From: a virus
Direction: 5' to 3' (one strand)
DNA length: 64,000 bases
IMG/VR virus record: IMGVR_UViG_3300036846_001134
Coordinates: 1-64,000 of that record
Below are positions 4,990-36,871 of the stretch, piece by piece. The first letter of the stretch is position 1; every line of letters starts with the position of its first letter. The notes below the pieces were generated by a model. The model was not told the origin of the DNA and did not search any database. It was given only the letters and a program-made list of their open reading frames with translations. The position numbers and the translations under genes were made by a program.

Positions 4990-5583
4990 ATGACGACGAC
5001 GACAGCAACACCGACAGCAACACCCTCCGCCCAGGACATAGCCCGCAAGCTACAGCATGCCCTAGTCTTGGCCGGGCTCCACGTGACCGAGGGCAAGAGC
5101 GAGCAGGCCAAGGACTTACGCCTGGCCTTGAAGCTCATCACCGAGTGCCTTACCCCTGCCCAGGTGGACCAGGCCAGGGCCACGCTGAAGGCCATGAAGG
5201 CGCCCAAAGCCCCCACGGTTACCCCCGTGACCATCACCCACGTGCCCATGCAGACTGGCCGCGCCCCGCAAGCCCCTCCCAGGCTAGCGGCAGCGCCGCC
5301 AGCGCCTAAGCCGACCAGCCTTGAGTCCGCGATTAGCAGCTTTCCCCCTGTGTTCGGCTTCCGGCATTTCGCCGATTCGATCCGGTTTCGGATTAGCCCC
5401 TCCGAAAGCCTGGTTACCCCCGAGGGTAAGATCCTGCTCGCCGTCCACCGCCTGGCCAAGGGCTCGACCACGGAGAGCGCCTTGTTCGGGAAAGTCAGCC
5501 CGGAAGGACTGCGGAGTCAGGTCGCGGCATGGGCCGCGACTAAGACCGGAGAGATAAGCTATGACCAAAGAGATAAGCTATGA
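4990..5583 (+). CDS. Unknown protein, 197 aa, first gene of the small-gene cluster
   Basis: ATG 4990 follows the leader AAGGACTTACCCC. The N-terminus is Thr-rich, residues 15-70 look helical, residues 70-110 form a Pro/Ala-rich linker, and residues 110-190 look globular (FGFRHFADSIRFRISPSESL...GKILLAVHRLAKG). No family is recognised. The last codons lie in a 19-base tandem duplication that also creates the start of the next gene, so the two overlap. Confidence 0.65.
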   Translation: MTTTTATPTATPSAQDIARKLQHALVLAGLHVTEGKSEQAKDLRLALKLITECLTPAQVDQARATLKAMKAPKAPTVTPVTITHVPMQTGRAPQAPPRLAAAPPAPKPTSLESAISSFPPVFGFRHFADSIRFRISPSESLVTPEGKILLAVHRLAKGSTTESALFGKVSPEGLRSQVAAWAATKTGEISYDQRDKL

Positions 5584-5588
5584 CCAAA
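5551..5588 (+). repeat. Perfect 19-bp tandem duplication
   Basis: GAGATAAGCTATGACCAAA occurs twice in direct contact (5551-5569, 5570-5588), followed by GAG. The duplication adds codons to the end of the upstream gene and gives a second copy of the downstream start. Only the second ATG (5580) opens the small membrane-protein frame. Confidence 0.85.
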
Positions 5589-5678
5589 GAGTTACTCCAG
5601 AACGTCGCCATCGCGCTACTGATTGTAGCCCTCTGGCTAGGCTTCGCGGCTGTGGTCGCCGAATCGCTCACGCCGTGA
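5580..5678 (+). CDS. Single-pass membrane peptide, 32 aa
   Basis: ATG 5580 to TGA 5678. The product is MTKELLQNVAIALLIVALW followed by LGFAAVVAESLTP: one strongly hydrophobic helix with short polar ends. It overlaps the end of the preceding gene, suggesting translational coupling. Tiny inner-membrane peptides like this are common in phage early regions; the role is unknown. Confidence 0.5.
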   Translation: MTKELLQNVAIALLIVALWLGFAAVVAESLTP

Positions 5679-5725: not shown

Positions 5726-5770
5726 TTTCACCCCCACTCGCTTGACAAAAATCGAGCGATGCGGCAAACT
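5726..5770 (+). promoter_or_regulatory. Promoter P2 (TTTCACCCC box, TTGACA, CAAACT)
   Basis: TTTCACCCC at 5726-5734, a seven-base gap, TTGACA at 5742-5747, a 17-base spacer containing TCGAGCGAT, and CAAACT at 5765-5770. It belongs to the set of six near-identical promoters and drives the 48-residue gene at 5819. Confidence 0.75.
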
Positions 5771-5818
5771 GGTTTCAGTGGCGCGAGAAACGCCCAGGAC
5801 TTAGAGGAGACTTACCCC

Positions 5819-5965
5819 ATGACGAACGCTAACTTCAACGCCGATGACTTTGACCTGATGGAACAGACCGACACCTACCTGGCCAGCCTGGACCTGGAGA
5901 TGGTCTGGGAATATGCGGACGCCCATGACGACCTGGCCAACTGGCTCAAGGCGGACCTGGACTAA
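5819..5965 (+). CDS. Acidic small protein, 48 aa
   Basis: ATG 5819 is preceded by AGAGGAGACTTACCCC, a strong ribosome site with the ACCCC-ATG context shared by this cluster. The product is very acidic (NADDFDLMEQTDTYL...DAHDDLANWLKADLD). No family is recognised. The stop TAA overlaps the first base of ribozyme HHR1's stem I. Confidence 0.65.
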   Translation: MTNANFNADDFDLMEQTDTYLASLDLEMVWEYADAHDDLANWLKADLD

Positions 5966-6020
5966 ATCCCCTGACGATGGCCCACTGGGAAGGGGCCGAA
6001 ATGCCGCGAGGCATCGGGAT
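5966..6020 (+). ncRNA. Hammerhead ribozyme HHR1 (type I)
   Basis: Core CTGACGA 5971-5977, one extra U (5978), stem II GGCCC 5979-5983 with GGGCC 5993-5997, GAA 5998-6000, stem III 6001-6005 with 6010-6014 closed by a GCGA tetraloop, cleavage nucleotide C6015. Stem I is AUCCC 5966-5970 with GGGAU 6016-6020, five perfect pairs. Predicted cut: 6015|6016. The released 3' RNA begins GGGAUAUUUCCC, itself a 4-bp hairpin. Confidence 0.85.
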
Positions 6021-6046
6021 ATTTCCCACAGAGAGAAACACACACC

Positions 6047-6313
6047 ATGACGACCACACAGACCATCGACACCGACGCCTTGCTGGCCCAGCTGGAGGCC
6101 CTCCGGGCGGAGAACGACAAGCTGCGCACGCAGCCCAGGACGGCATCGCCGCTAACCCTGCGGGTAAGCGAGAAGGGCGCCTTGAGCGTCTACGGCATGG
6201 GCCGCTTCCCGGTCACGCTGTACCGCGAGCAGTGGACCAAGCTGCTCGGCTACGCCGACCAGATCCGCGAGTTCATCCGGGTGAACGACGCCAGCCTCGC
6301 GACCAAGCAGTAA
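6047..6313 (+). CDS. Small conserved-looking phage protein, 88 aa
   Basis: ATG 6047 lies 32 bases after the predicted HHR1 cut. A leucine-rich helix (DALLAQLEALRAENDKL) is followed by a compact domain SPLTLRVSEKGALSVYGMGR and FPVTLYREQWTKLLGYADQI. The second half reads like a small DNA-associated or hypothetical phage domain, but I cannot name it. Its stop is followed immediately by HHR2. Confidence 0.65.
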   Translation: MTTTQTIDTDALLAQLEALRAENDKLRTQPRTASPLTLRVSEKGALSVYGMGRFPVTLYREQWTKLLGYADQIREFIRVNDASLATKQ

Positions 6314-6379
6314 CTCCCCTGACGATGGCCTATGGGGATAGGCCGAATGGCTCATGCCGGGAGGCATTGGCCACGGGAG
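6314..6379 (+). ncRNA. Hammerhead ribozyme HHR2 (variant, long stem III)
   Basis: Stem I CUCCC 6314-6318 with GGGAG 6375-6379; core CTGACGA 6319-6325 plus extra U6326; stem II GGCCUAU 6327-6333 with AUAGGCC 6338-6344, loop GGGG; GAA 6345-6347; stem III 6348-6358 with 6363-6373 (10 of 11 pairs, GGGA loop). The site is C6374. The pair next to the site is U-A, reversed from the canonical A15.1-U16.1, so activity needs testing. Stem II and stem III covary with the other copies. Confidence 0.7.
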
Positions 6380-6390
6380 ATACCCACACC

Positions 6391-6558
6391 ATGACGACGA
6401 CTTACAACGGCCTGATTCAGGCCATGACCATCATCCATGCGGCCAAGAGCGAAGTTACCCGCGAGGAAGGCATGATGATTACCCCGCACTGGCGCATGCT
6501 GCTGCATGCCGGGGAGTACCTGAACAGGCAGGCCACTGACTTACTCCGAGGTGAGTAA
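6391..6558 (+). CDS. Small unknown protein, 55 aa
   Basis: ATG 6391 lies only 16 bases after the predicted HHR2 cut. The only Shine-Dalgarno-like sequence is the GGGAG that forms the 3' strand of ribozyme stem I. The product is helical (NGLIQAMTIIHAAKSEVTRE, then MMLHAG-like ends); no family is recognised. A hairpin and promoter P3 follow. Confidence 0.6.
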   Translation: MTTTYNGLIQAMTIIHAAKSEVTREEGMMITPHWRMLLHAGEYLNRQATDLLRGE

Positions 6559-6568
6559 GTCGCAACCG

Positions 6569-6598
6569 GGTGGGCTAAGTCTAGCGGCTAGGCCCACC
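6569..6598 (+). terminator. Terminator-like hairpin without T-run
   Basis: GGTGGGC at 6569-6575 pairs with GGCCCACC at 6591-6598 around a TA-containing loop, nine to ten pairs with one bulge. It separates the HHR2-linked gene from promoter P3. No U-tract follows, so it may be a 3' stabiliser or a Rho-assisted stop rather than an intrinsic terminator. Confidence 0.45.
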
Positions 6599-6601
6599 GC
6601 G

Positions 6602-6646
6602 TTTCACCCCAAGTTGCTTGACAATTTTCGAGCGATTTGAGAAACT
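6602..6646 (+). promoter_or_regulatory. Promoter P3 (TTTCACCCC box, TTGACA, GAAACT)
   Basis: TTTCACCCC 6602-6610, seven-base gap, TTGACA 6618-6623, 17-base spacer with TCGAGCGATTT, GAAACT 6641-6646. It drives the gene at 6673 and probably the genes after HHR3. Confidence 0.8.
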
Positions 6647-6672
6647 GGAAATCGAGCGAGGAGATACACCCC

Positions 6673-6888
6673 ATGAGTAAGACGAAAGACAAGACGGTAA
6701 CCTGGAGCGAAAGCTCAAGCGCCTACTGGTTCGACTGCGGCTACCGCACGGCGTGCTGCGGCGACGGCGTGGATATGTTCTTCACCGAGGACGGTGAGGC
6801 TATCAGTCCTGGCACGCCGGAATTCGAGGCGTGCATGGACGCGGCATGCCTGGACCCGGAGACGTGGGAGGCTTACTTTGGCAGTTAG
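6673..6888 (+). CDS. Cysteine-containing unknown protein, 71 aa
   Basis: ATG 6673 has GAGGAGATACACCCC in front. The acidic product holds Cys residues (DCGYRTACCGDGVDMFF, then ACMDAACLD) that could bind metal but form no standard zinc-ribbon spacing. Function unknown. HHR3 starts four bases after its TAG stop. Confidence 0.65.
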   Translation: MSKTKDKTVTWSESSSAYWFDCGYRTACCGDGVDMFFTEDGEAISPGTPEFEACMDAACLDPETWEAYFGS

Positions 6889-6892
6889 CTAA

Positions 6893-6946
6893 CTCCCCTG
6901 ACGATGGCCCACGGGGGTGGGCCGAATCGCCGCGAGGCGACGGGAG
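6893..6946 (+). ncRNA. Hammerhead ribozyme HHR3 (variant)
   Basis: Stem I CUCCC 6893-6897 with GGGAG 6942-6946; core CTGACGA 6898-6904 plus U6905; stem II GGCCCAC 6906-6912 with GUGGGCC 6917-6923 (seven pairs, GGGG loop); GAA 6924-6926; stem III UCGCC 6927-6931 with GGCGA 6936-6940, GCGA loop; site C6941. Stem II differs from HHR2 by compensatory changes (CAC/GUG for UAU/AUA). As in HHR2 the 15.1-16.1 pair is U-A. Confidence 0.75.
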
Positions 6947-6969
6947 ATACCCACAAGGAGAGTAACCCC

Positions 6970-7230
6970 ATGACGAACACTAACGAACCAATCCGTAGGG
7001 CGACCTACGCCAAGATGCGTGCCGCGCTCAAAGCCGCGCTTGAGGACCTGGAGATCCTGAGCGGCGACAAGGTCGGCCCGAGCGGCGTAAGCTGGCAGGA
7101 CGTGGCCGGAACCTGCGCCACTAACTTCCAGGTGCTGGTCTGGAACCTGGAACGGGCGCGGCAAGGCTATGCCGAGCCTAACATCACCTTCCCGTCGCCT
7201 GCCGAATGCCTGGAGGAGAGCCATGAGTAA
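6970..7230 (+). CDS. Small unknown protein, 86 aa
   Basis: ATG 6970 follows AAGGAGAGTAACCCC, 28 bases after the predicted HHR3 cut. The product is largely helical (ATYAKMRAALKAALEDLEIL...ATNFQVLVWNLERARQGY). No family is recognised. The next gene overlaps its end by eight bases, indicating translational coupling within the processed mRNA. Confidence 0.65.
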   Translation: MTNTNEPIRRATYAKMRAALKAALEDLEILSGDKVGPSGVSWQDVAGTCATNFQVLVWNLERARQGYAEPNITFPSPAECLEESHE

Positions 7231-7375
7231 CGGCGCCTGGTACGACTACACCTTGCAGGCCTGGGTGGTGGACGGGCGCTATGTCCCCTGCGGCCACCCG
7301 GCCAGCATGAACTGCGCCTGCTACGGCAGGCTGCATGCCGGGGAGACGGCGACCGAGCGGGAGGAGGGCCAGTGA
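7223..7375 (+). CDS. Small Cys/His protein, 50 aa
   Basis: ATG 7223 lies behind TGGAGGAGAGCC inside the previous gene. The product contains CGHPASMNCACYGRLHAGE, a possible metal-binding patch. It overlaps the next gene by its TGA. Function unknown. Confidence 0.55.
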   Translation: MSNGAWYDYTLQAWVVDGRYVPCGHPASMNCACYGRLHAGETATEREEGQ

Positions 7376-7530
7376 TCCGCGACTCTATCGCCTCCGCTTG
7401 CACATGGCTATGGGTCGCCTCCCTGATAGTAGCGGCGTTCCTGCCGCACGGCCATTGGACCTTCGACTACGCCTGCTATGCGAGCTTCGTCGGTTTCATG
7501 GGCTGGATTGTCGCTATGTTGAGCCGCTAA
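7372..7530 (+). CDS. Two-helix membrane protein, 52 aa, GTG start
   Basis: GTG 7372 overlaps the preceding TGA and has GGAGGAGGGCCA upstream. Two hydrophobic segments (CTWLWVASLIVAAFL and YASFVGFMGWIVAML) flank a short polar loop, predicting a small inner-membrane hairpin protein. The coding spacing and coupling support it despite its length. The TAA is followed at once by HHR4. Confidence 0.6.
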   Translation: MIRDSIASACTWLWVASLIVAAFLPHGHWTFDYACYASFVGFMGWIVAMLSR

Positions 7531-7580
7531 CCCCCTGACGAGGCCGTGCGAGTCGGCCGAAACGCCGTGAGGCGTAGGGA
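7531..7580 (+). ncRNA. Hammerhead ribozyme HHR4 (GUA site)
   Basis: Core CTGACGA 7535-7541; stem II GGCCG 7542-7546 with CGGCC 7554-7558, loop UGCGAGU; GAA 7559-7561; stem III ACGCC 7562-7566 with GGCGU 7571-7575, GUGA loop; site A7576 (GUA is an allowed NUH triplet). Stem I is three pairs (CCC 7532-7534 with GGG 7577-7579). No gene follows directly; promoter P4 does, so this copy would trim the 3' end of the upstream transcript. Confidence 0.85.
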
Positions 7581-7594
7581 GAAAACCGGACCCG

Positions 7595-7639
7595 TTTCAC
7601 CCCAAATTGCTTGACAAAAATCGAGCGATTTGCGATACT
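7595..7639 (+). promoter_or_regulatory. Promoter P4 (TTTCACCCC box, TTGACA, GATACT)
   Basis: TTTCACCCC 7595-7603, TTGACA 7611-7616, 17-base spacer, GATACT 7634-7639, the best -10 of the set. The spacer holds a perfect inverted repeat AAATCG-AG-CGATTT, a candidate repressor site between the -35 and -10. Confidence 0.85.
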
Positions 7640-7698
7640 GGGTTCAACGGCGCGAACAAGCGCCGCCAACGTTCAGACGAGAGATAAGGATACACCCC

Positions 7699-8532
7699 AT
7701 GAATACGATCAACATGCGTCACAGCGTCCGTTCCATGACGGCGCTCTCTAACGACCAGCTTAGGGCGGTTGCCCCGAGCGTGTTTGCCATGGAGCCATGG
7801 CACCGGATGAGCGACAAGTACGCCTTCATCCCCACCATCGCGGTCATCGAGCGGATGCGGGAAGAGGGCTTCCAGCCCGTGCAGGCCATGCAGTCGAGGA
7901 CCCGCATCGAGGGCAAGGGGGACTTCACCAAGCACCTGATCCGCTTCCGCGACATGCGCCAGGGGGACCAGCCCTTGACCCGCCAGCTGGGCGTGGTCTA
8001 CCCCGAGCTGGTCCTGACCAACAGCCACGACGGGGCCAGCGCCTATAAGCTCGATAGCGGGCTGTTCCGCCTGGTCTGCACCAACGGCATGGTGGTCGGC
8101 GACGGCGTGGTCAATCACATCAGCGTGCGCCACACCGGAAGCCCGGACGGCGTGATCAACGCGAGCTTTGAGGTCATCGACCAGATGCCCAAGGTGATCG
8201 ACAGCGTGGAGAACTTCCAGCGGCTGCGGCTAGAGGCGCCGCAGGCCGAGGTGTTCGCCACCGCCGCGCTTCAACTGCGCTACGACGAGGGGGAGGCGCC
8301 TATCACTCCCGCCCAGGTGCTGCAACCGCGCCGCATGGAGGACTCTACGCCCACCCTGTGGAACACCTTCAACCGCGCCCAGGAAGCCCTGGTCGGCGGC
8401 GGTATCCGGGGCCGCAGCGCCGAGACGCGCCGTCGCCTGCGGACGCGCCCGGTGGAAGGCATCACCGAGAACACCAAGCTGAACAAGGCCCTCTGGACCT
8501 TGGCCGAGGAGATGCGCAAGCTGATGAGCTAA
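7699..8532 (+). CDS. DUF932-family protein
   Basis: A 277-residue protein from ATG 7699 (leader AAGGATACACCCC). It shows the hallmark of DUF932 phage/plasmid proteins: a stretch like LVLTNSHDGASAYKLDSGLF followed by RLVCTNGMVV. Members are encoded by many phages and conjugative plasmids; the biochemical role is not established. It is the largest gene of the cluster and has the strongest promoter. The C-terminal 60 residues are Arg-rich and may contact nucleic acid. Confidence 0.8.
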   Translation: MNTINMRHSVRSMTALSNDQLRAVAPSVFAMEPWHRMSDKYAFIPTIAVIERMREEGFQPVQAMQSRTRIEGKGDFTKHLIRFRDMRQGDQPLTRQLGVVYPELVLTNSHDGASAYKLDSGLFRLVCTNGMVVGDGVVNHISVRHTGSPDGVINASFEVIDQMPKVIDSVENFQRLRLEAPQAEVFATAALQLRYDEGEAPITPAQVLQPRRMEDSTPTLWNTFNRAQEALVGGGIRGRSAETRRRLRTRPVEGITENTKLNKALWTLAEEMRKLMS

Positions 8533-8539
8533 CCGGGAA

Positions 8540-8557
8540 GGGGGCCGCGAGGCCCCC
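8540..8557 (+). terminator. 7-bp GC hairpin with GNRA loop after DUF932 gene
   Basis: GGGGGCC 8540-8546 pairs with GGCCCCC 8551-8557 around GCGA. No U-run follows. It may block 3' exonucleases or attenuate transcription before the next gene. It has no hammerhead core. Confidence 0.5.
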
Positions 8558-8580
8558 ACGCCCAACCTAAAGGAAAACCC

Positions 8581-8880
8581 ATGGAACAAATTAAACCCTA
8601 CGAACTAAGCCTGGGCATCGAGCACCTGATGACGGGCGCGGAATTGGTCAGCGAGACTGGGCGCAGCTTTCACTTCGAGTACGAGAGCCCGAGCGTGGTG
8701 CGCGTCACCTGCCGGGAGCCCTTCGCCTGCTACTGGAGGCCGCAAGGCCAGGACAGTGCGCCCATCAAGCTGAATGCCACCTTGGCCGACCACGGCCTGA
8801 CCCTGGAGTTCAGCGAGAGCGAGGTGCGATTCTTCGCCCGCGACATGGCCGAGGCCATGCGGGCCAAGTTCAACAGCTAA
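8581..8880 (+). CDS. Small unknown protein, 99 aa
   Basis: ATG 8581 has AAAGGAAAACCC upstream. A mixed alpha/beta product (ELVSETGRSFHFEYESPSVV, then a C-terminal helix FFARDMAEAMRAKF). It resembles small phage accessory proteins but no family can be named. The TAA directly abuts HHR5. Confidence 0.65.
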   Translation: MEQIKPYELSLGIEHLMTGAELVSETGRSFHFEYESPSVVRVTCREPFACYWRPQGQDSAPIKLNATLADHGLTLEFSESEVRFFARDMAEAMRAKFNS

Positions 8881-8930
8881 CCCCCTGACGAGGCCGTGCG
8901 AGTCGGCCGAAACGCCGCGAGGCGTCGGGA
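8881..8930 (+). ncRNA. Hammerhead ribozyme HHR5
   Basis: Core CTGACGA 8885-8891; stem II GGCCG 8892-8896 with CGGCC 8904-8908, loop UGCGAGU; GAA then stem III ACGCC/GGCGU with GCGA loop; site C8926 (GUC). Stem I CCC 8882-8884 with GGG 8927-8929. The 3' product starts GGGA(CAUAU)UCCC, a hairpin at 8927-8939 directly followed by AAGGA and ACCCC-ATG. Confidence 0.9.
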
Positions 8931-8952
8931 CATATTCCCAAGGACCAACCCC

Positions 8953-9249
8953 ATGACGACGACGATAGAACTCACCCCGAGCCTGACCTCCATGCGGATC
9001 ATCGCCTGGACCGACGAGGCCGTATACCTGAGACTGCCGCTCGAACTACAGCGCGACTGCGGCGGCTGTAGCTGCGAGCAATGCAAGAAAAATCCGAAAC
9101 TCGCGAAATGGGACACGCTGGCGGTGCCCGTCAAGGGCAAGCCGCGCGGATCGTACAGCGAGAACCACTCCTGGACCGTCCACATGCCGGACGGCGCGGT
9201 GGCGGGCTTCATGGAGTACATGAAGAACAAGGCCAAGGAGAAAGCCTGA
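8953..9249 (+). CDS. Cys-rich small protein, 98 aa
   Basis: ATG 8953, ribosome site AAGGA 8 bases upstream, right after the HHR5 product hairpin. The product has a CGGCSCEQC cluster near residue 40, probably a metal site, then a beta-rich stretch (DTLAVPVKGKPRGSYSENHS) and a basic helical tail. Not recognised. It overlaps the next gene (TGATG). Confidence 0.65.
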   Translation: MTTTIELTPSLTSMRIIAWTDEAVYLRLPLELQRDCGGCSCEQCKKNPKLAKWDTLAVPVKGKPRGSYSENHSWTVHMPDGAVAGFMEYMKNKAKEKA

Positions 9250-9368
9250 TGGCCGACAGCGATAGCGGCTGCGCACTGGTGGGCTGCGGCATCGTGGGCT
9301 ACTTCGCGTTCTGGGCCGTGGTGATCGTTGCCGCAACCTTGCTCGTGAAGTTCGTCTGGACCTGGTAG
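9249..9368 (+). CDS. Single-pass membrane protein, 39 aa
   Basis: ATG 9249 overlaps the preceding stop and lies close behind AAGGAGAAAGCC. One long hydrophobic segment (IVGYFAFWAVVIVAATLLV) with a Cys/Gly-rich N-terminus. The size and coupling are like the other membrane peptides in this cluster. Role unknown. Confidence 0.55.
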   Translation: MADSDSGCALVGCGIVGYFAFWAVVIVAATLLVKFVWTW

Positions 9369-9376
9369 CCCATCAA

Positions 9377-9427
9377 CCCCCTGACGAGGCCGTGAGAGTC
9401 GGCCGAAACGCCGCGAGGCGTCGGGAG
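9377..9427 (+). ncRNA. Hammerhead ribozyme HHR6
   Basis: Core CTGACGA 9381-9387; stem II GGCCG 9388-9392 with CGGCC 9400-9404, loop UGAGAGU; stem III with GCGA loop; site C9422 (GUC). Stem I CCC 9378-9380 with GGG 9423-9425. In the 3' product GGGA pairs with UCCC about ten bases later, placing AAGGA, the likely ribosome site, in the loop. Confidence 0.88.
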
Positions 9428-9448
9428 AGAAAGGAATCCCATTACCCC

Positions 9449-9688
9449 ATGACCGCAAACAAAACCTACGCGCTTACCGATACCTTGCGCACGCCGGCAC
9501 GCGAGCTTCACCCCTTCCCCGGCCTGTTCTACTACTCGGGCTTTGGCATGGGCCACTACTACTCGACCGACGGCACGGCCCACTGGGCGGCATCGAGCGA
9601 GGCCAAGGACCTGGCCGCGAGCGAGGGCGTCAAGTACGTCTACGTGGACGCGCTCGAAGGCTACCAGGCCGTCTACCTGGGCGACTAG
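9449..9688 (+). CDS. Small Tyr/Gly-rich protein, 79 aa
   Basis: ATG 9449 in the ACCCC-ATG context. Aromatic-rich product (PFPGLFYYSGFGMGHYYSTD, then AASEGVKYVYVDALEGYQAV). No family recognised. It ends the transcription unit before promoter P5. Confidence 0.6.
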   Translation: MTANKTYALTDTLRTPARELHPFPGLFYYSGFGMGHYYSTDGTAHWAASSEAKDLAASEGVKYVYVDALEGYQAVYLGD

Positions 9689-9693
9689 GCGCA

Positions 9694-9737
9694 TTTCACC
9701 CCAAGCACTTGACAAAATTCGAGCAACGTGAGAAACT
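9694..9737 (+). promoter_or_regulatory. Promoter P5 (TTTCACCCC box, TTGACA, GAAACT)
   Basis: TTTCACCCC 9694-9702, six-base gap, TTGACA 9709-9714, 17-base spacer, GAAACT 9732-9737. It drives the gene at 9760 and the units released by HHR7 and HHR8. Confidence 0.8.
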
Positions 9738-9759
9738 GGAAATCGAAAGGAAACACCCC

Positions 9760-10050
9760 ATGAACTGGAGCGTACCCGCTACCGACTACGCGGTAATCGT
9801 CAAGATTGCCCAACGCGCCACGGCCCTCGCCAGGCGCTACAACGTGAACTACCCGCAGGGCACCGCCCTGATGGACCTGACGGCCTGCCACGCCAATGCC
9901 TTCCGCCTGCGCGTGGAGGAGTTGCTCAAGGCCGATGACTCTAACTTCGCCCATGACGTGTTCGGCATCCGCCGCCACCTCGACCGCGAGACGGGCAAGC
10001 TCGCGGATTGCTTCGTGCCGCGCTTCGCGAGCAAGGAGGCGGTGAACTAG
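9760..10050 (+). CDS. DUF6874-like protein, 96 aa
   Basis: ATG 9760 with GAAAGGAAACACCCC upstream. The order of motifs (an initial VPATDYAVIVKIAQRATALA, then LMDLTACHANAFRLRVEELL and FAHDVFGIRRHLDRETGKLA) resembles the DUF6874 family, small proteins of phages and bacteria with unknown function. The family name is from memory and moderate in certainty. A second small gene follows three bases later. Confidence 0.65.
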   Translation: MNWSVPATDYAVIVKIAQRATALARRYNVNYPQGTALMDLTACHANAFRLRVEELLKADDSNFAHDVFGIRRHLDRETGKLADCFVPRFASKEAVN

Positions 10051-10052
10051 CC

Positions 10053-10220
10053 ATGCGGAAGTACATCATCGTGCGCAACACCGACCGTCCCGGTCACTGC
10101 CATGTCGAGATCCACAAGTACATCGGCCAGGAGGAAGGCATCCCGTGCTATGAGCACTACCGGACGATGAAGAACTTCCCCGAGGCGGCGGACCTGATCC
10201 GGCGTCTGGAAGCCGCCTAA
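10053..10220 (+). CDS. Small unknown protein, 55 aa
   Basis: ATG 10053 starts two bases after the previous TAG, so translation is probably coupled. The product (MRKYIIVRNTDRPGHCHVEI, ending FPEAADLIRRLEAA) has one predicted beta hairpin and a C-terminal helix. Not recognised. TAA abuts HHR7. Confidence 0.6.
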   Translation: MRKYIIVRNTDRPGHCHVEIHKYIGQEEGIPCYEHYRTMKNFPEAADLIRRLEAA

Positions 10221-10282
10221 CCCCCTGACGAGCCCGTGAAAGTCGGCGCGAAACGCCCCGTCGAGATGACGGCGCGTCGGGA
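10221..10282 (+). ncRNA. Hammerhead ribozyme HHR7 (extended stem III)
   Basis: Core CTGACGA 10225-10231; stem II GC-CCG with CGG-GC and one bulged C, loop UGAAAGU; GAA followed by a 10-position stem III (nine pairs, one C-C mismatch, GAGAU loop); site C10278 (GUC). Stem III is twice the usual length yet closes at the same place, which is strong structural support. The 3' product hairpin GGGA(CAUUA)UCCC lies at 10279-10291, then AAGGA. Confidence 0.9.
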
Positions 10283-10304
10283 CATTATCCCAAGGACATA
10301 CCCC

Positions 10305-10691
10305 ATGACAGAACGATTCTTTATCGACAGGCCCGTACAGACGGGCGCAATGAGCCAGCCGCGCGACCTGGACGACGCCGTCTTCCCCACTTACGCGGAG
10401 ATGGACGGCAACCTGCTCAAGTGGAGCGGCAGCTTCCCCCTGCCCGAGGTGGGCGCCCACGTCTACATCACCATGAACAACATCGGCTGGGCCTACGTGG
10501 AAGGCTACTTTGCGAGCGCTGGCTACCTGGGCGTGATGACTCGTGCCACCAACCCGCCCGCGTGGCTGCGCAGGCAGCAGCGCGAGCGCGCCAACTGCCC
10601 CAACTCGCCCGAGTGGGTGCGCAAGGGCATCGGCTGCGAGTTCGGGACCGAGATCGCGCTGACCAAACCCAGGCGCAAGGAGGTGGCATAG
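10305..10691 (+). CDS. Unknown protein, 128 aa
   Basis: ATG 10305, eight bases after AAGGA. The middle is beta-rich (VGAHVYITMNNIGWAYVEGY, then SAGYLGVMTRATNPPAWLRR) and could be a small nucleic-acid or modulator fold; no family recognised. The C-terminus is basic. First of four overlapping genes before HHR8. Confidence 0.65.
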   Translation: MTERFFIDRPVQTGAMSQPRDLDDAVFPTYAEMDGNLLKWSGSFPLPEVGAHVYITMNNIGWAYVEGYFASAGYLGVMTRATNPPAWLRRQQRERANCPNSPEWVRKGIGCEFGTEIALTKPRRKEVA

Positions 10692-10693
10692 CC

Positions 10694-10957
10694 ATGACGA
10701 TAGACCAAGCCTGCGAGAGAGCCCGCCAGCTGCGCGGCAAGCAATTCCTGATGCCCCAGGACCGGGACGCGCTGGATAGCCTGATGGGCGCGGCGCTGGT
10801 GGCCCAGCGCCTGATGGCCCGCCTGGAAACCCTGGAGTCGCTGACGGGCGCGCTCCAGGATACCAACGAAAGCTCCGACGGTGGCGAGAGCTACATGGTG
10901 ATGGGCAATGTGGACACGGCCCTATTGATCGAGGTTGGGCTGCGGAGGGCGAAATGA
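10694..10957 (+). CDS. Small helical protein, 87 aa
   Basis: ATG 10694 starts two bases after the previous TAG. Mostly helical (DQACERARQLRGKQFL...LMGAALVAQRLMARLETLES). It overlaps the next start by four bases (ATGA). Function unknown. Confidence 0.6.
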   Translation: MTIDQACERARQLRGKQFLMPQDRDALDSLMGAALVAQRLMARLETLESLTGALQDTNESSDGGESYMVMGNVDTALLIEVGLRRAK

Positions 10958-11268
10958 CCAAGACCATCGACATCACCCCCAACTTCGCGCATCTGTTCGC
11001 GATGTTCATAGAGCAGGCCCGCACCCAGGGCCTGCACATCACCCGCTACCTGCCGCTAGAGGAGGTGGTCAACAAGCCCGCCACGCTCGCGGCCGTGCTG
11101 CGCGGCTTTGAAGGCCCTATCGTGGCGCTCAACATCGCCGCGAGCGCCATGACCACGGCCGAGGAGGTCGAGCAGCTGCGCAGCGTGCTGAGCGAGTTGG
11201 CGAGCTACCTCGACCAGACCGCAGGCCGCCTGGAGAAGCAGGCCGAGGGGGAGGACGGCAAGCGATGA
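10954..11268 (+). CDS. Helical protein, 104 aa
   Basis: ATG 10954 overlaps the preceding stop; GGAGGGCGAA lies just upstream. The sequence is amphipathic helix throughout with a C-terminal coiled-coil stretch (EEVEQLRSVLSELASYLDQT). No family recognised. It overlaps the next gene by four bases. Confidence 0.6.
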   Translation: MTKTIDITPNFAHLFAMFIEQARTQGLHITRYLPLEEVVNKPATLAAVLRGFEGPIVALNIAASAMTTAEEVEQLRSVLSELASYLDQTAGRLEKQAEGEDGKR

Positions 11269-11411
11269 GTTGGTGCATGTATTGCTGCCTCGCGCTTCAT
11301 CCAACGATGTTGACTGGGTATTGCCTGACCCGGTGCAAGTGCGACAACTGTGGCCGTACGGCGGATCTGGCGATGGTGAAACCTAAGATGAGCACCGAGG
11401 AAAAGCAGTAA
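11265..11411 (+). CDS. Cys-rich zinc-ribbon-like peptide, 48 aa
   Basis: ATG 11265 is coupled to the preceding gene (ATGA). The product carries CMYCC near its start and CKCDNC about 25 residues later, spacing fit for a small zinc ribbon, and a charged tail. The TAA is followed at once by HHR8. Probably a small protein- or nucleic-acid-binding factor; inference only. Confidence 0.55.
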   Translation: MSWCMYCCLALHPTMLTGYCLTRCKCDNCGRTADLAMVKPKMSTEEKQ

Positions 11412-11462
11412 CCCCCTGACGAGGCCGTGAAAGTCGCGCCGAAACGCCGTGAGGCGTCGGGA
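11412..11462 (+). ncRNA. Hammerhead ribozyme HHR8
   Basis: Core CTGACGA 11416-11422; stem II GGC-CG with CG-GCC and a bulged C, loop UGAAAGU; stem III ACGCC/GGCGU with GUGA loop; site C11458 (GUC). Stem I CCC/GGG. The 3' product hairpin GGGA(CACAU)UCCC at 11459-11471 precedes AAGGA. Confidence 0.88.
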
Positions 11463-11486
11463 CACATTCCCAAGGAAACAAACCCC

Positions 11487-11666
11487 ATGACAACGACAAC
11501 CTACGTGGCCGTGCAGCAGACCGGAAAGCGCACGACCTTCGAGCGCGAGGAGGAGGCCAGGACCTTCGCCGAGCGCTGCCGGAGAGACGACATGTTCACC
11601 TACATCCTGGAAGTCAAGACGCGGTTCCTGGCGAGCTATTGCCCCGAGCCGGCGGAGGTGAAATAG
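11487..11666 (+). CDS. Small unknown protein, 59 aa
   Basis: ATG 11487 after AAGGAAACAAACCCC. A beta-alpha-beta-like sequence (TYVAVQQTGKRTTFEREEEA, then FTYILEVKTRFLASYC). Not recognised. First of four genes in the unit between HHR8 and HHR9. Confidence 0.6.
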   Translation: MTTTTYVAVQQTGKRTTFEREEEARTFAERCRRDDMFTYILEVKTRFLASYCPEPAEVK

Positions 11667-11668
11667 CC

Positions 11669-11923
11669 ATGCCAAAACCCAAGGACCTGATTGCCTACAT
11701 CGTCGCCAAGGTGCGGATCGCGCCGCGCGATGGCGAAAAGTACGACTTCGACCATGTGGCCGGGTATATCGAGGGCGCGCTCTCGCGGGCCATGCGGGAG
11801 AACGATCCCGAGGACGACGTGGTGGACCTGATTACATTCCACCAGAACCGCGCGCCGCTTGAAACCGCCGCGCTCGACAGGCTGTTGAGCACCGGGATGA
11901 TCGACGAGGAGACGAAATCATGA
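11669..11923 (+). CDS. Small acidic protein, 84 aa
   Basis: ATG 11669, two bases after the previous stop, with GGAGG about 12 bases upstream. Helical, acidic in the second half (RENDPEDDVVDLITFHQ). Overlaps the next gene by four bases. Function unknown. Confidence 0.6.
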   Translation: MPKPKDLIAYIVAKVRIAPRDGEKYDFDHVAGYIEGALSRAMRENDPEDDVVDLITFHQNRAPLETAALDRLLSTGMIDEETKS

Positions 11924-12153
11924 CCACCACCGAGAAACTGATCCAGTCCCAGGTCAAGCGCCTGGGCGAGAGCTTCGAGCGCCTCAAGGTCTGGACCGAC
12001 TTCAACTATCAGGCCACGCGCGCCTGTCCCGCCAACCCCGAGCAGATCCTGCGCGAGAGCAACCGCGTCGCGCAGCTGGCCGAGGGTATCGAGCACCTGA
12101 TCGAGCGCCGCGCCAAGGAGATAGCGGCGGCCAAGAAGGTGAAGCAGCCATGA
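11920..12153 (+). CDS. Helical protein, 77 aa
   Basis: ATG 11920 overlaps the preceding stop (ATGA) behind GAGGAGACGAAATC. Predicted all-helical with a basic end (HLIERRAKEIAAAKKVKQP). No family recognised; coupled to the next gene by a four-base overlap. Confidence 0.6.
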   Translation: MTTTEKLIQSQVKRLGESFERLKVWTDFNYQATRACPANPEQILRESNRVAQLAEGIEHLIERRAKEIAAAKKVKQP

Positions 12154-12479
12154 GCAAACTGATTGGCAAGCGCTTCCGCACCCTGATTCCTGATTACGAG
12201 GAGGACGAGGAGTACGGCGAGGTGACGCATCCCATAGGCAGCGAGTTCATTGTCGTCGCCAACCTGGACTACCAGTGGGGCGAGCCGGGGGACAAGGGCT
12301 ACGGCTACGCGCACAGCGTGTCCTGGCAGGGGACCGCCCTGCCGGGAAGCTGGCAGGGCGGCAAGAAGAAGCTGTTCGTCGTCACCGGGACGCCCGTGCC
12401 AGCCGAGGGTATGTGGTGCATCTGGACCGACGTCGAGATTGCCCGCGACGCCGTGGAGGTGACGGAACCAACCCCCTGA
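12150..12479 (+). CDS. Unknown protein, 109 aa, stop codon inside HHR9 core
   Basis: ATG 12150 is coupled to the preceding gene. A beta-rich product (FRTLIPDYEEDEEYGEVTHP...GSEFIVVANLDYQWGE). The reading frame ends ACC CCC TGA, and this TGA is part of the CUGACGA core of HHR9, so ribosome termination and ribozyme folding share the same bases. Function unknown. Confidence 0.65.
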   Translation: MSKLIGKRFRTLIPDYEEDEEYGEVTHPIGSEFIVVANLDYQWGEPGDKGYGYAHSVSWQGTALPGSWQGGKKKLFVVTGTPVPAEGMWCIWTDVEIARDAVEVTEPTP

Positions 12480-12523
12480 CGAGCCCGTGAAAGTCGGTGC
12501 GAAACGCCGTGAGGCGTCGGGAG
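12472..12523 (+). ncRNA. Hammerhead ribozyme HHR9
   Basis: Core CTGACGA 12476-12482; stem II GC-CCG with CGG-GC and a bulged U (C in HHR7), loop UGAAAGU; stem III ACGCC/GGCGU with GUGA loop; site C12518 (GUC). Stem I CCC/GGG overlaps the end of the upstream gene. Promoter P6 follows, so like HHR4 this copy would define a 3' end. Confidence 0.88.
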
Positions 12524-12525
12524 CA

Positions 12526-12570
12526 TTTCACCCCGCTGCGCTTGACAAAATTCAAGCGCAATGCGAAACT
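12526..12570 (+). promoter_or_regulatory. Promoter P6 (TTTCACCCC box, TTGACA, GAAACT)
   Basis: TTTCACCCC 12526-12534, seven-base gap, TTGACA 12542-12547, 17-base spacer, GAAACT 12565-12570. It drives the last part of the cluster, from 12593 on, which contains no ribozyme. Confidence 0.8.
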
Positions 12571-12592
12571 GATTATTGAAAGGCAATACCCC

Positions 12593-35536: not shown

Positions 35537-36871
35537 TTAGTTCACCGGCCCCTGCGGCTTTTGCCCCAAAAGCTGGTCATCCAACTGGTTCACCAGGACG
35601 CGGCGGCGGTCCAAACTCGTCTTGGTGTACTTCATGGTCATGGCCGCGTCGCCATGGCCCATCATCGCCACGCGGTCGCTAAGCTCCATGCCCATTTCAT
35701 CCAAAATGGTGGTGTGAGTTCTCCGCAAAACATGCCATGACAACCACGGCATGTCGAGCTTTTTGCCGATTGTTTTCAGCTTGCGATTCGCGAGGTTGTG
35801 CGCGTCAACCGGCGTCCCCTTGCGCGACACCAGCACGTAGTCATCTGGCGACGTGTACTTTTCGCGCTGCTTCAGCTCGGCGAGAATCGAGAGCATAATC
35901 GGCGGAATGGGCAACGCCCGCTTGCGGCTTTTGCGCTTGGTCGTATCGAGCTTGCCCAGGTTCCACTGCTTCCGCACCAGGACCGTGAAAGGCGGAAGCG
36001 TCTCGCCGTCCACCGTCGCGAAGCGATCCGTAATATTCACGCGCTTCCATTGCAGCCCGCAAATTTCTGCGATGTTCATCGAGGTCAGAATCGAGATGAC
36101 GGAAATGTGGTATTCGGGATACTGCATCTGCCCGAGTACCGTCTTCGCCTCTTCGAGAGTGAGCGCGCGCAGGTCCTTCACCGGCTCAACCGCAGGCGTG
36201 CGTACCGACTCAGCCGGATTGTCGCCTCTAAAAAAGCGCTTCTCTTTGGCATAGGTGACAATCGCCGAACAAACCGTTCGGATGTGATTCACCGTCGCCG
36301 GAGAATAATCGCGCCCCATCGCGGCGGCGATCACCCGCTGCACATGGCTCTGGTCCAGATCGCGAAGACGAACGTCATCCAGGTAAGGCCACCCTTTAAT
36401 TTCGACGCGCGCATTCTTGTACTTCTTGGCGTAGCCCTCGCTCTTTTTTCCAAACGCACGCACGACCCGGTCTGGAGTCAGCACGTCCTTCAGCCGGCTC
36501 CGGTAAAAAAGCCGCGTGTGCGCCTTCTTCATCATGACGTGCTCGGGAATAAAAAACTGTTCCACAAACTGCGCCACGGTCATGACGCTTTGCGGCGTGG
36601 TCGTGTTCTGATCGAGCTTCGATAGGTAGTCTTCCCACCCGATGCGCTTGGCCTCTTTCTGCGTCAGCCTCTCCGGCCCGGTACATGGACCGATACGCAC
36701 GCGCGGCGCCCACTCGCGTGCGAGGCTGCCGTCCGGCTTGATGACCTCCTCGCGCCAGCGCAGCATCCACCAGTCGCCGCGCTTCTCCAAATTCCCACTC
36801 TGTTGCAATCGTCGTCTGCCCAAGTTTTCTACCTCGGGCCACATCGTAACAGGTTCAAATATATTTTTCAT
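35537..36871 (-). CDS. int: Tyrosine recombinase integrase
   Basis: A 444-residue integrase: N-terminal arm-binding and core-binding regions to about residue 220, then the catalytic domain with TKRKSRKRALPIPP (Lys), WHVLRRTHTT (His-x-x-Arg), MMGHGDAAMTMKYTK (His and nucleophile Tyr). The first catalytic Arg position reads TSMNIAEICGLQW, with Asn where most families have Arg. Adjacent to the attP-like site, as usual for temperate phages. ATG 36871 was taken as start; the upstream gap holds 9-bp repeats. Confidence 0.9.
   Translation of the reverse strand: MKNIFEPVTMWPEVENLGRRRLQQSGNLEKRGDWWMLRWREEVIKPDGSLAREWAPRVRIGPCTGPERLTQKEAKRIGWEDYLSKLDQNTTTPQSVMTVAQFVEQFFIPEHVMMKKAHTRLFYRSRLKDVLTPDRVVRAFGKKSEGYAKKYKNARVEIKGWPYLDDVRLRDLDQSHVQRVIAAAMGRDYSPATVNHIRTVCSAIVTYAKEKRFFRGDNPAESVRTPAVEPVKDLRALTLEEAKTVLGQMQYPEYHISVISILTSMNIAEICGLQWKRVNITDRFATVDGETLPPFTVLVRKQWNLGKLDTTKRKSRKRALPIPPIMLSILAELKQREKYTSPDDYVLVSRKGTPVDAHNLANRKLKTIGKKLDMPWLSWHVLRRTHTTILDEMGMELSDRVAMMGHGDAAMTMKYTKTSLDRRRVLVNQLDDQLLGQKPQGPVN

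Follow-up and report, generated by a model that had tools for sequence, protein, structure and literature searches.

What nine similar elements, set one after another between the genes of a virus, might do to the transcripts that run through them is the question raised by the DNA analysed here, a stretch of 64,000 nucleotides (positions 1 to 64,000 of the IMG/VR record IMGVR_UViG_3300036846_001134; hereafter the window). The elements span 6.6 kb amid small open reading frames (ORFs). A preliminary description, made without database searches, had taken them for type I hammerhead ribozymes (HHRs) that would cut a polycistronic early mRNA into gene units. The comparison with related sequences strongly supports their identification as type I hammerheads, and we consider it probable (roughly 0.7) that HHR1 to HHR9 would cut the phage transcripts into coupled blocks of one to four genes with protected ends, as a natural counterpart of the RiboJ insulator.

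Identity of the nine elements

Relatives of the elements were gathered from IMG/VR by DNA patterns; the first, loose pattern gave mostly chance matches, which were sorted by a structural filter. The relatives include L001 with eight copies, and L121, L122, L038, L047 and L075 with one or two each. A covariance model (R1) was constructed from 13 sequences of other records, with zero sequence from the window, and the window was searched with the filters off. R1 matched the nine copies only, all on the gene strand, with E values from 6e-15 to 2.7e-4 and scores between 68.5 and 25.4 bits, and the tenth-best match reached 12.7 bits (E 0.37). Additionally, the 66,378-base record contains nine occurrences of the motif CCCCTGACGA, each of them on the plus strand and between 5968 and 12482; its minus strand has none, and the reversed control gave no match. 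The model and the motif thus both return exactly the nine places named in the preliminary description, and the 5' ends predicted there (6016, 6375, 6942, 7577, 8927, 9423, 10279, 11459 and 12519) agree with our structural parse.

Each element reads in the order C3-U-G-A-N-G-A9, stem II, G12-A-A14, stem III starting from the pair 15.1-16.1, N17 and stem I. The core CUGACGA and GAA is present in 9/9 copies, and N7 is C, T or A among the relatives. Stems II and III are closed and stem I is open, as in a type I hammerhead, and the helices carry compensatory changes. Stem I has 5 bp in copies 1-3 and 3 bp in copies 4-9, its CCC/GGG being common to all nine. The core and the three-helix junction are like those of the Rfam families Hammerhead_1 and Hammerhead_3, but the window copies lie below the gathering score: at that score Rfam called none of the nine, and permissive settings returned only Hammerhead_3 at about 20 bits.

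The copies, all on the plus strand, fall into two sets by their core. Canonical in this respect are HHR4 (7529-7582, GUA triplet, 63.8 bits) and, all with GUC, HHR5 (8879-8932, 67.7 bits), HHR6 (9375-9428, 68.5 bits), HHR7 (10219-10284, bulged C in stem II and extended stem III, 64.9 bits), HHR8 (11410-11464, 59.9 bits) and HHR9 (12470-12524, bulged U in stem II, 61.0 bits). Copies 4-6 are near-identical in sequence, and the gene upstream of HHR9 takes its stop codon (12477-12479) from the UGA of the CUGA core. HHR1 (5965-6021, cut before 6016, 35.5 bits), HHR2 (6313-6380, cut before 6375, 25.4 bits) and HHR3 (6892-6947, cut before 6942, 29.9 bits) carry an additional U that separates A9 from stem II; HHR1 retains A15.1-U16.1 with the triplet AUC, and in HHR2 (CAC) and HHR3 (GAC) U15.1-A16.1 replaces that pair. 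The stem III of HHR2 is long and two-part. Stem II had been read correctly as CAC/GUG in copy 3 and UAU/AUA in copy 2, and copies 7 and 9 do differ in their bulges; copy 8 is likewise bulged in stem II.

Covariation among the relatives, which the preliminary description had proposed as a check, is present. In 38 aligned sequences 10/13 pairs have changed on both sides with pairing kept; paired cells amount to 92.3%, where shuffles reach 71.6% and slid controls 23-46%. The covariation score is 0.496, as opposed to 0.118 after shuffling and no more than 0.072 after sliding; these figures lean towards the model because the alignment was fitted to it. The search patterns themselves account for part of the core conservation in the relatives, and the NUH rule was therefore examined only at positions that they leave open. 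This less biased test used matches to CTGANGAGNNNNTGNNANNNNNNCGAAA, a pattern that leaves stem I, stem III, 16.1 and 17 free. It gave 116 distinct matches, 99 of which complete both stems, as against 1/133 with shuffled downstream sequence. In the 99 complete elements 15.1-16.1 is A-U without exception and N17 is C (82) or A (17), never G; the sister phage L001 (63,568 bases, eight HHR copies) adds one U. As far as it can be read from these sequences, the elements conform to the hammerhead NUH rule. Copies 1 and 4-9 (AUC, GUA, GUC) agree with it and have A15.1-U16.1; the triplets CAC and GAC of copies 2 and 3 depart from NUH. Loop II has the conserved form UGNRAGU in copies 4-9 and in L001, which suggests a contact with stem I there; copies 1-3 have other loops. 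We infer from their sequences that the nine copies cleave.

The core changes of the first three copies recur elsewhere. The extra U and U15.1-A16.1 are found together in the record L066 and in one of the two copies of L161, and the extra U with the normal 15.1-16.1 pair is found in L158 and in the other L161 copy, so that in the window, L066 and L161 the swapped pair is always accompanied by the extra U. A hammerhead with an identical swap was tested by Perreault et al. 2011 (PMC3088659) and cleaved, though less efficiently, so copies 2 and 3 are probably slower rather than dead; unlike that variant, the swap here recurs in two copies of one array, in L066 and in L161, and with the extra U. 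Given their core changes, copies 1-3 altogether may cut slowly. By eye, the same extra U after A9 is also seen, as CUGACGAUGGCC, in type III hammerheads (L159, L160, L162, L163, L164, L165).

Gene borders and the predicted 5' hairpin of the products

The placement of the ribozymes was mapped on genes g2-g24, with start codons picked by Shine-Dalgarno sequence and overlap. Among the 22 junctions, 10 are overlapping or 2 nt wide and 12 have gaps of at least 48 nt. Nine of these gaps hold an HHR (two of them also a promoter), two hold a promoter only and one holds a strong hairpin, so the ribozymes delimit translationally coupled blocks of one to four genes. In 9/9 copies the start of the core lies at -4 to 12 nt from the preceding stop codon, and the distance from the predicted cut to the next start codon is 16-31 nt except where a promoter intervenes.

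It was found that the RNA downstream of the predicted cut carries a recurring motif. In all 14 window and L001 copies that stand directly before a gene, the product starts with GGGA-N-UCCC or GGG-N-CCC, a 5' hairpin that reuses the 3' strand of stem I (GGGA). UCCC follows GGGA by 4-14 nt in 12/17 window and L001 products, compared with a shuffled mean of 1.5 (0/5000 shuffles reach 12), and CCC lies downstream of GGG in 17/17 (shuffled mean 6.9, maximum 14). Three of the five products without UCCC belong to exactly those copies that are followed by a promoter (p 0.015); the remaining two belong to copies 2 and 3 and have GGGAGAUACCC. The Shine-Dalgarno sequence sits in the hairpin loop (GGGAGAGAAAGGAAUCCC) or directly 3' of the hairpin, the predicted energy of which is -3.7 to -6.3 kcal/mol.

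A 4-bp hairpin is predicted after copies 1, 5, 6, 7 and 8. It lies on the plus strand at 6016-6027 (GGGA-UAUU-UCCC, after HHR1), 8927-8939 (after HHR5, with the Shine-Dalgarno directly 3'), 9423-9440 (after HHR6, with an AAGGA Shine-Dalgarno in the loop), 10279-10291 (after HHR7) and 11459-11471 (after HHR8). The GGG/CCC motif is found after HHR2 as a 3-bp hairpin (6375-6385) and after HHR3 at 6942-6952, where it is not the predicted minimum free energy (MFE) structure. At HHR2 the GGGAG of the stem I 3' strand is the sole purine-rich stretch in window 6375-6390, ahead of the gene at 6391; it may be the Shine-Dalgarno of that gene, and hence cleavage and translation start may interfere there.

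Beyond the two sister phages, L121 shows a matching change in the product hairpin, GGGU with ACCC. Two unrelated arrays with other stem I sequences have the 5' hairpin as well (6/7 copies in L233, 4/4 in L243; 0/2000 shuffles each), and a further eleven records showed no enrichment, among them the eight-copy L269 (0/8). The hairpin as a general property of viral type I hammerheads was rejected, its frequency among 125 elements being 22%, against 14.5% in shuffled sequences and 16% in tail-swaps. Judged on this distribution, the product hairpin is a feature of particular arrays that appears to have been gained more than once.

Five near-identical sigma-70-like phage promoters (expected 0) are interspersed in the region, all on the plus strand: P1 (TTGACA ... 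CAAACT, 5742-5771), P2 (6618-6647), P3 directly after HHR4 (7611-7640), P4 (9709-9738) and P5 directly after HHR9 (12542-12571). Processing remains the most likely role of the array, as first proposed. With five promoters the region is not one polycistronic unit, the units are coupled blocks and not single genes, and the term early applies presumptively.

The genes of the cluster are small and mostly without a family; one belongs to DUF6874 and one, the only large gene, encodes a DUF932 protein (PF06067, 7699-8532, plus strand, E 6.8e-38). The strong hairpin, GGGGGCC/GGCCCCC at 8543-8560 on the plus strand as read from the sequence, occupies the sole 48-nt gap without HHR or promoter. A terminator reading of the HHR elements themselves was considered and rejected, since U-tracts are absent and terminator-like sites are not in excess. 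At window 5561-5590, where the gene at 4990 ends, 18 bases are duplicated in tandem (GACCAAAGAGATAAGCTAT), a repeat which spans the start of the next gene. Farther away, a tyrosine-recombinase-like ORF on the minus strand (window 35537-36871; R...HVLRRTHTT...MGHGDAAMTMKYT, by eye) suggests that the phage is temperate.

Proposed transcript processing and its alternatives

In the mechanism that we propose, each HHR would cut the nascent phage transcript co-transcriptionally. The upstream mRNA would then end in stems II and III, two hairpins that would form a 3' barrier, with a predicted 2',3'-cyclic phosphate, and the downstream mRNA would start with a 5'-OH at GGGA. A 5'-OH is a poor substrate for 5'-end-dependent decay (RNase E, RppH), and both RNA ends might be stabilised in this way. 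The freed GGGA could pair with a UCCC or CCC 4-10 nt downstream, which would break stem I; this pairing would favour product release and oppose re-ligation, and because the product hairpin and stem I are mutually exclusive the cut would be irreversible. The new mRNA would gain a 5' hairpin that flanks or encloses its Shine-Dalgarno, and expression might be adjusted block by block through cleavage. A broader version is put forward tentatively, at somewhat less than even odds: some phages might have repeatedly evolved a ribozyme and hairpin cassette at uncoupled gene borders, in which the stem I strand refolds as a cap-like 5' hairpin, blocks re-ligation and sets block stability and ribosome access, so that early genes could be separately tuned on a shared transcript.

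Several observations weigh against processing as the role of the array. Distant DUF932 relatives of up to 70% identity are without a hammerhead, and the array is therefore dispensable to the DUF932 gene. The interspersed promoters would by themselves split much of the region, copies 2 and 3 hold a core pair known to slow cleavage, and the product hairpin, which is short, is missing from many other arrays. Furthermore, the predicted MFE structure of copies 4-9 is not the hammerhead: since CCUGAC can pair with GUCGGG, a mispaired fold is better by 1.4-1.9 kcal/mol (5.3 for copy 7), in energies that take no account of stacking in the core, tertiary contacts or co-transcriptional folding. The MFE z-scores of these copies (-0.75 to -1.67) do not single them out, and folding energy alone is thus no evidence for copies 4-9.

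Among the alternatives, the unlikely one that survives best takes the elements for a recombination linker or selfish repeat, where sequence identity at the edges of gene blocks would allow phages to reshuffle small genes, with ribozyme activity being a by-product or the reason why insertions are tolerated. The clusters of L001 and the window have at least 10 genes in common, several of them reordered (g13/g14 and g16/g20 are exchanged), with HHRs at the block borders that differ between the two phages. This agrees with a linker, as do the near-identity of copies 4-6 and the patchy occurrence of the family among related phages. The compensatory changes and the strict NUH rule, however, point to selection on RNA. 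Moreover, two places are orthologous, one after g8 (HHR4 and L001 copy a) and one after g12 (HHR6 and L001 copy c), and there the sequences have diverged while the fold was kept, with stem II of HHR6 and L001 copy c differing by compensatory pairs.

Quite unlikely is a cleavage that is regulated rather than constitutive, depending on translation or timing through competition by UCCC, mispairing of the core or a terminating ribosome that blocks the fold. It would draw on the closeness of a stop codon to the core in 9/9 copies, on the predicted alternative pairing CCUGAC/GUCGGG and on the fact that GGGA belongs to two exclusive helices. Stem I and the core are transcribed ahead of UCCC, however, natural hammerheads with tertiary contacts are fast, and the mispairing is not present in copies 1-3.

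We regard as very unlikely that circular or re-ligated RNA is the purpose, with the ribozyme or the host RtcB joining the block ends after cleavage. A block between two HHRs would have a 5'-OH and a 2',3'-cyclic phosphate, its GGG could pair with the CCC of the other HHR, and with CCC/GGG in stem I of all nine copies the ends of every block would be compatible. This end chemistry suits RtcB. Nevertheless, the downstream UCCC would hide the GGG required for ligation, and stem I is not common to the copies of the seven-copy array L220. Perreault et al. (PMC3088659) sought spliced or circular products of phage arrays and found none.

That the elements are not ribozymes but repeated hairpins serving as terminator, protein-binding site or RNase processing site is scarcely credible: Rfam reports nothing above threshold, but variation falls on the paired positions while the unpaired core is kept, every element of the unbiased set follows NUH and no U-tract is present.

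Processing into blocks thus stays our preferred reading. The nine-copy array and its eight-copy sister, with defined cut sites, make it directly testable, and the two phages hold natural variants of their own: three promoter-followed copies without the hairpin and two with a probably slow core.

Related arrays and comparison with known systems

The window is accompanied in IMG/VR by other arrays of 3-8 HHRs. Eight copies are found in L269 and L225, which are apparently one kind of phage, seven in L233, L301 and the L220 record, five in the L309 record and four in several others. The contigs with 4-8 type I HHRs that are unrelated to the window are L269, L225, L233, L301, L220, L240, L243, L309, L205, L242 and L317. 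The copies are all on one strand in each of 16/16 multi-copy records. A BLAST search of single elements against named phages gave chance matches only, and no cultured phage with this array was found.

A separate observation concerns archaea. A type I hammerhead built like those of the window lies just upstream of GGAGGUGA in many Nitrososphaeria (Thaumarchaeota) genomes, including the Nitrosotalea devanaterra chromosome (L191:35-84, L171-L173, L175, L176, L178, L180, L184-L188, L190, L192-L194, L196, L198, L199, L201, L202). In the six cases inspected in detail, the genes that follow it encode predicted secreted proteins that are related to one another, measure about 210-230 aa (FAWADTG...KATDAIKNDP...) and belong to no clear Pfam family. 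As a conserved chromosomal element of an archaeal 5' leader, this hammerhead seems to merit separate study.

The preliminary description had regarded such an array as not described. Clustered phage hammerheads and the processing idea were, however, published in 2011: according to Perreault et al. (PMC3088659), multiple hammerheads of prophages flank genes or short blocks, processing into operon- or gene-length mRNAs is proposed as their role, and cleavage is reported for three clustered arrangements in vitro and for one of them in E. coli. A 2017 review (PMC6155905) repeats the processing idea and treats the role of phage hammerheads as an open question. The window array is therefore a large, newly seen and unusually long member of a kind of cluster known in phages since 2011. 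It is like those clusters in having several one-strand HHRs that flank single genes or short phage gene blocks. It differs in its nine copies, all of type I, where the A. tumefaciens case tested by Perreault et al. is a triple, and in its product hairpin, which the consulted passages of that paper do not mention. Among open-licence papers, the combination of product hairpin and paired core change, as we read it from the sequences, was not found described. The phage PaP3 (NC_004466, L170) offers a simpler case: a type I HHR (44106, minus strand) that immediately follows a TAA stop codon in an early region of small genes. One copy was found there by our scan, its stem I unrelated to that of the window.

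A further parallel is an engineered one. RiboJ consists of an HHR and a hairpin, and increased mRNA roughly twofold and protein by a factor of two to ten (PMC6206723). The order of its parts, hammerhead, then 5' mRNA hairpin, then ribosome-binding site (PMC6206723; Lou et al. 2012 cited therein), is also that predicted for the window; RiboJ was engineered from sTRSV with a separate 23-nt hairpin, whereas in the window one strand of the hairpin is the former 3' strand of stem I. Should the product hairpin prove important, phages would have reached the RiboJ design before engineers, and the cassettes could be used as they stand to set genes apart in bacterial operons. By analogy, the arrangement of ribozyme and hairpin in the window resembles the RiboJ insulator and might work in the same manner.

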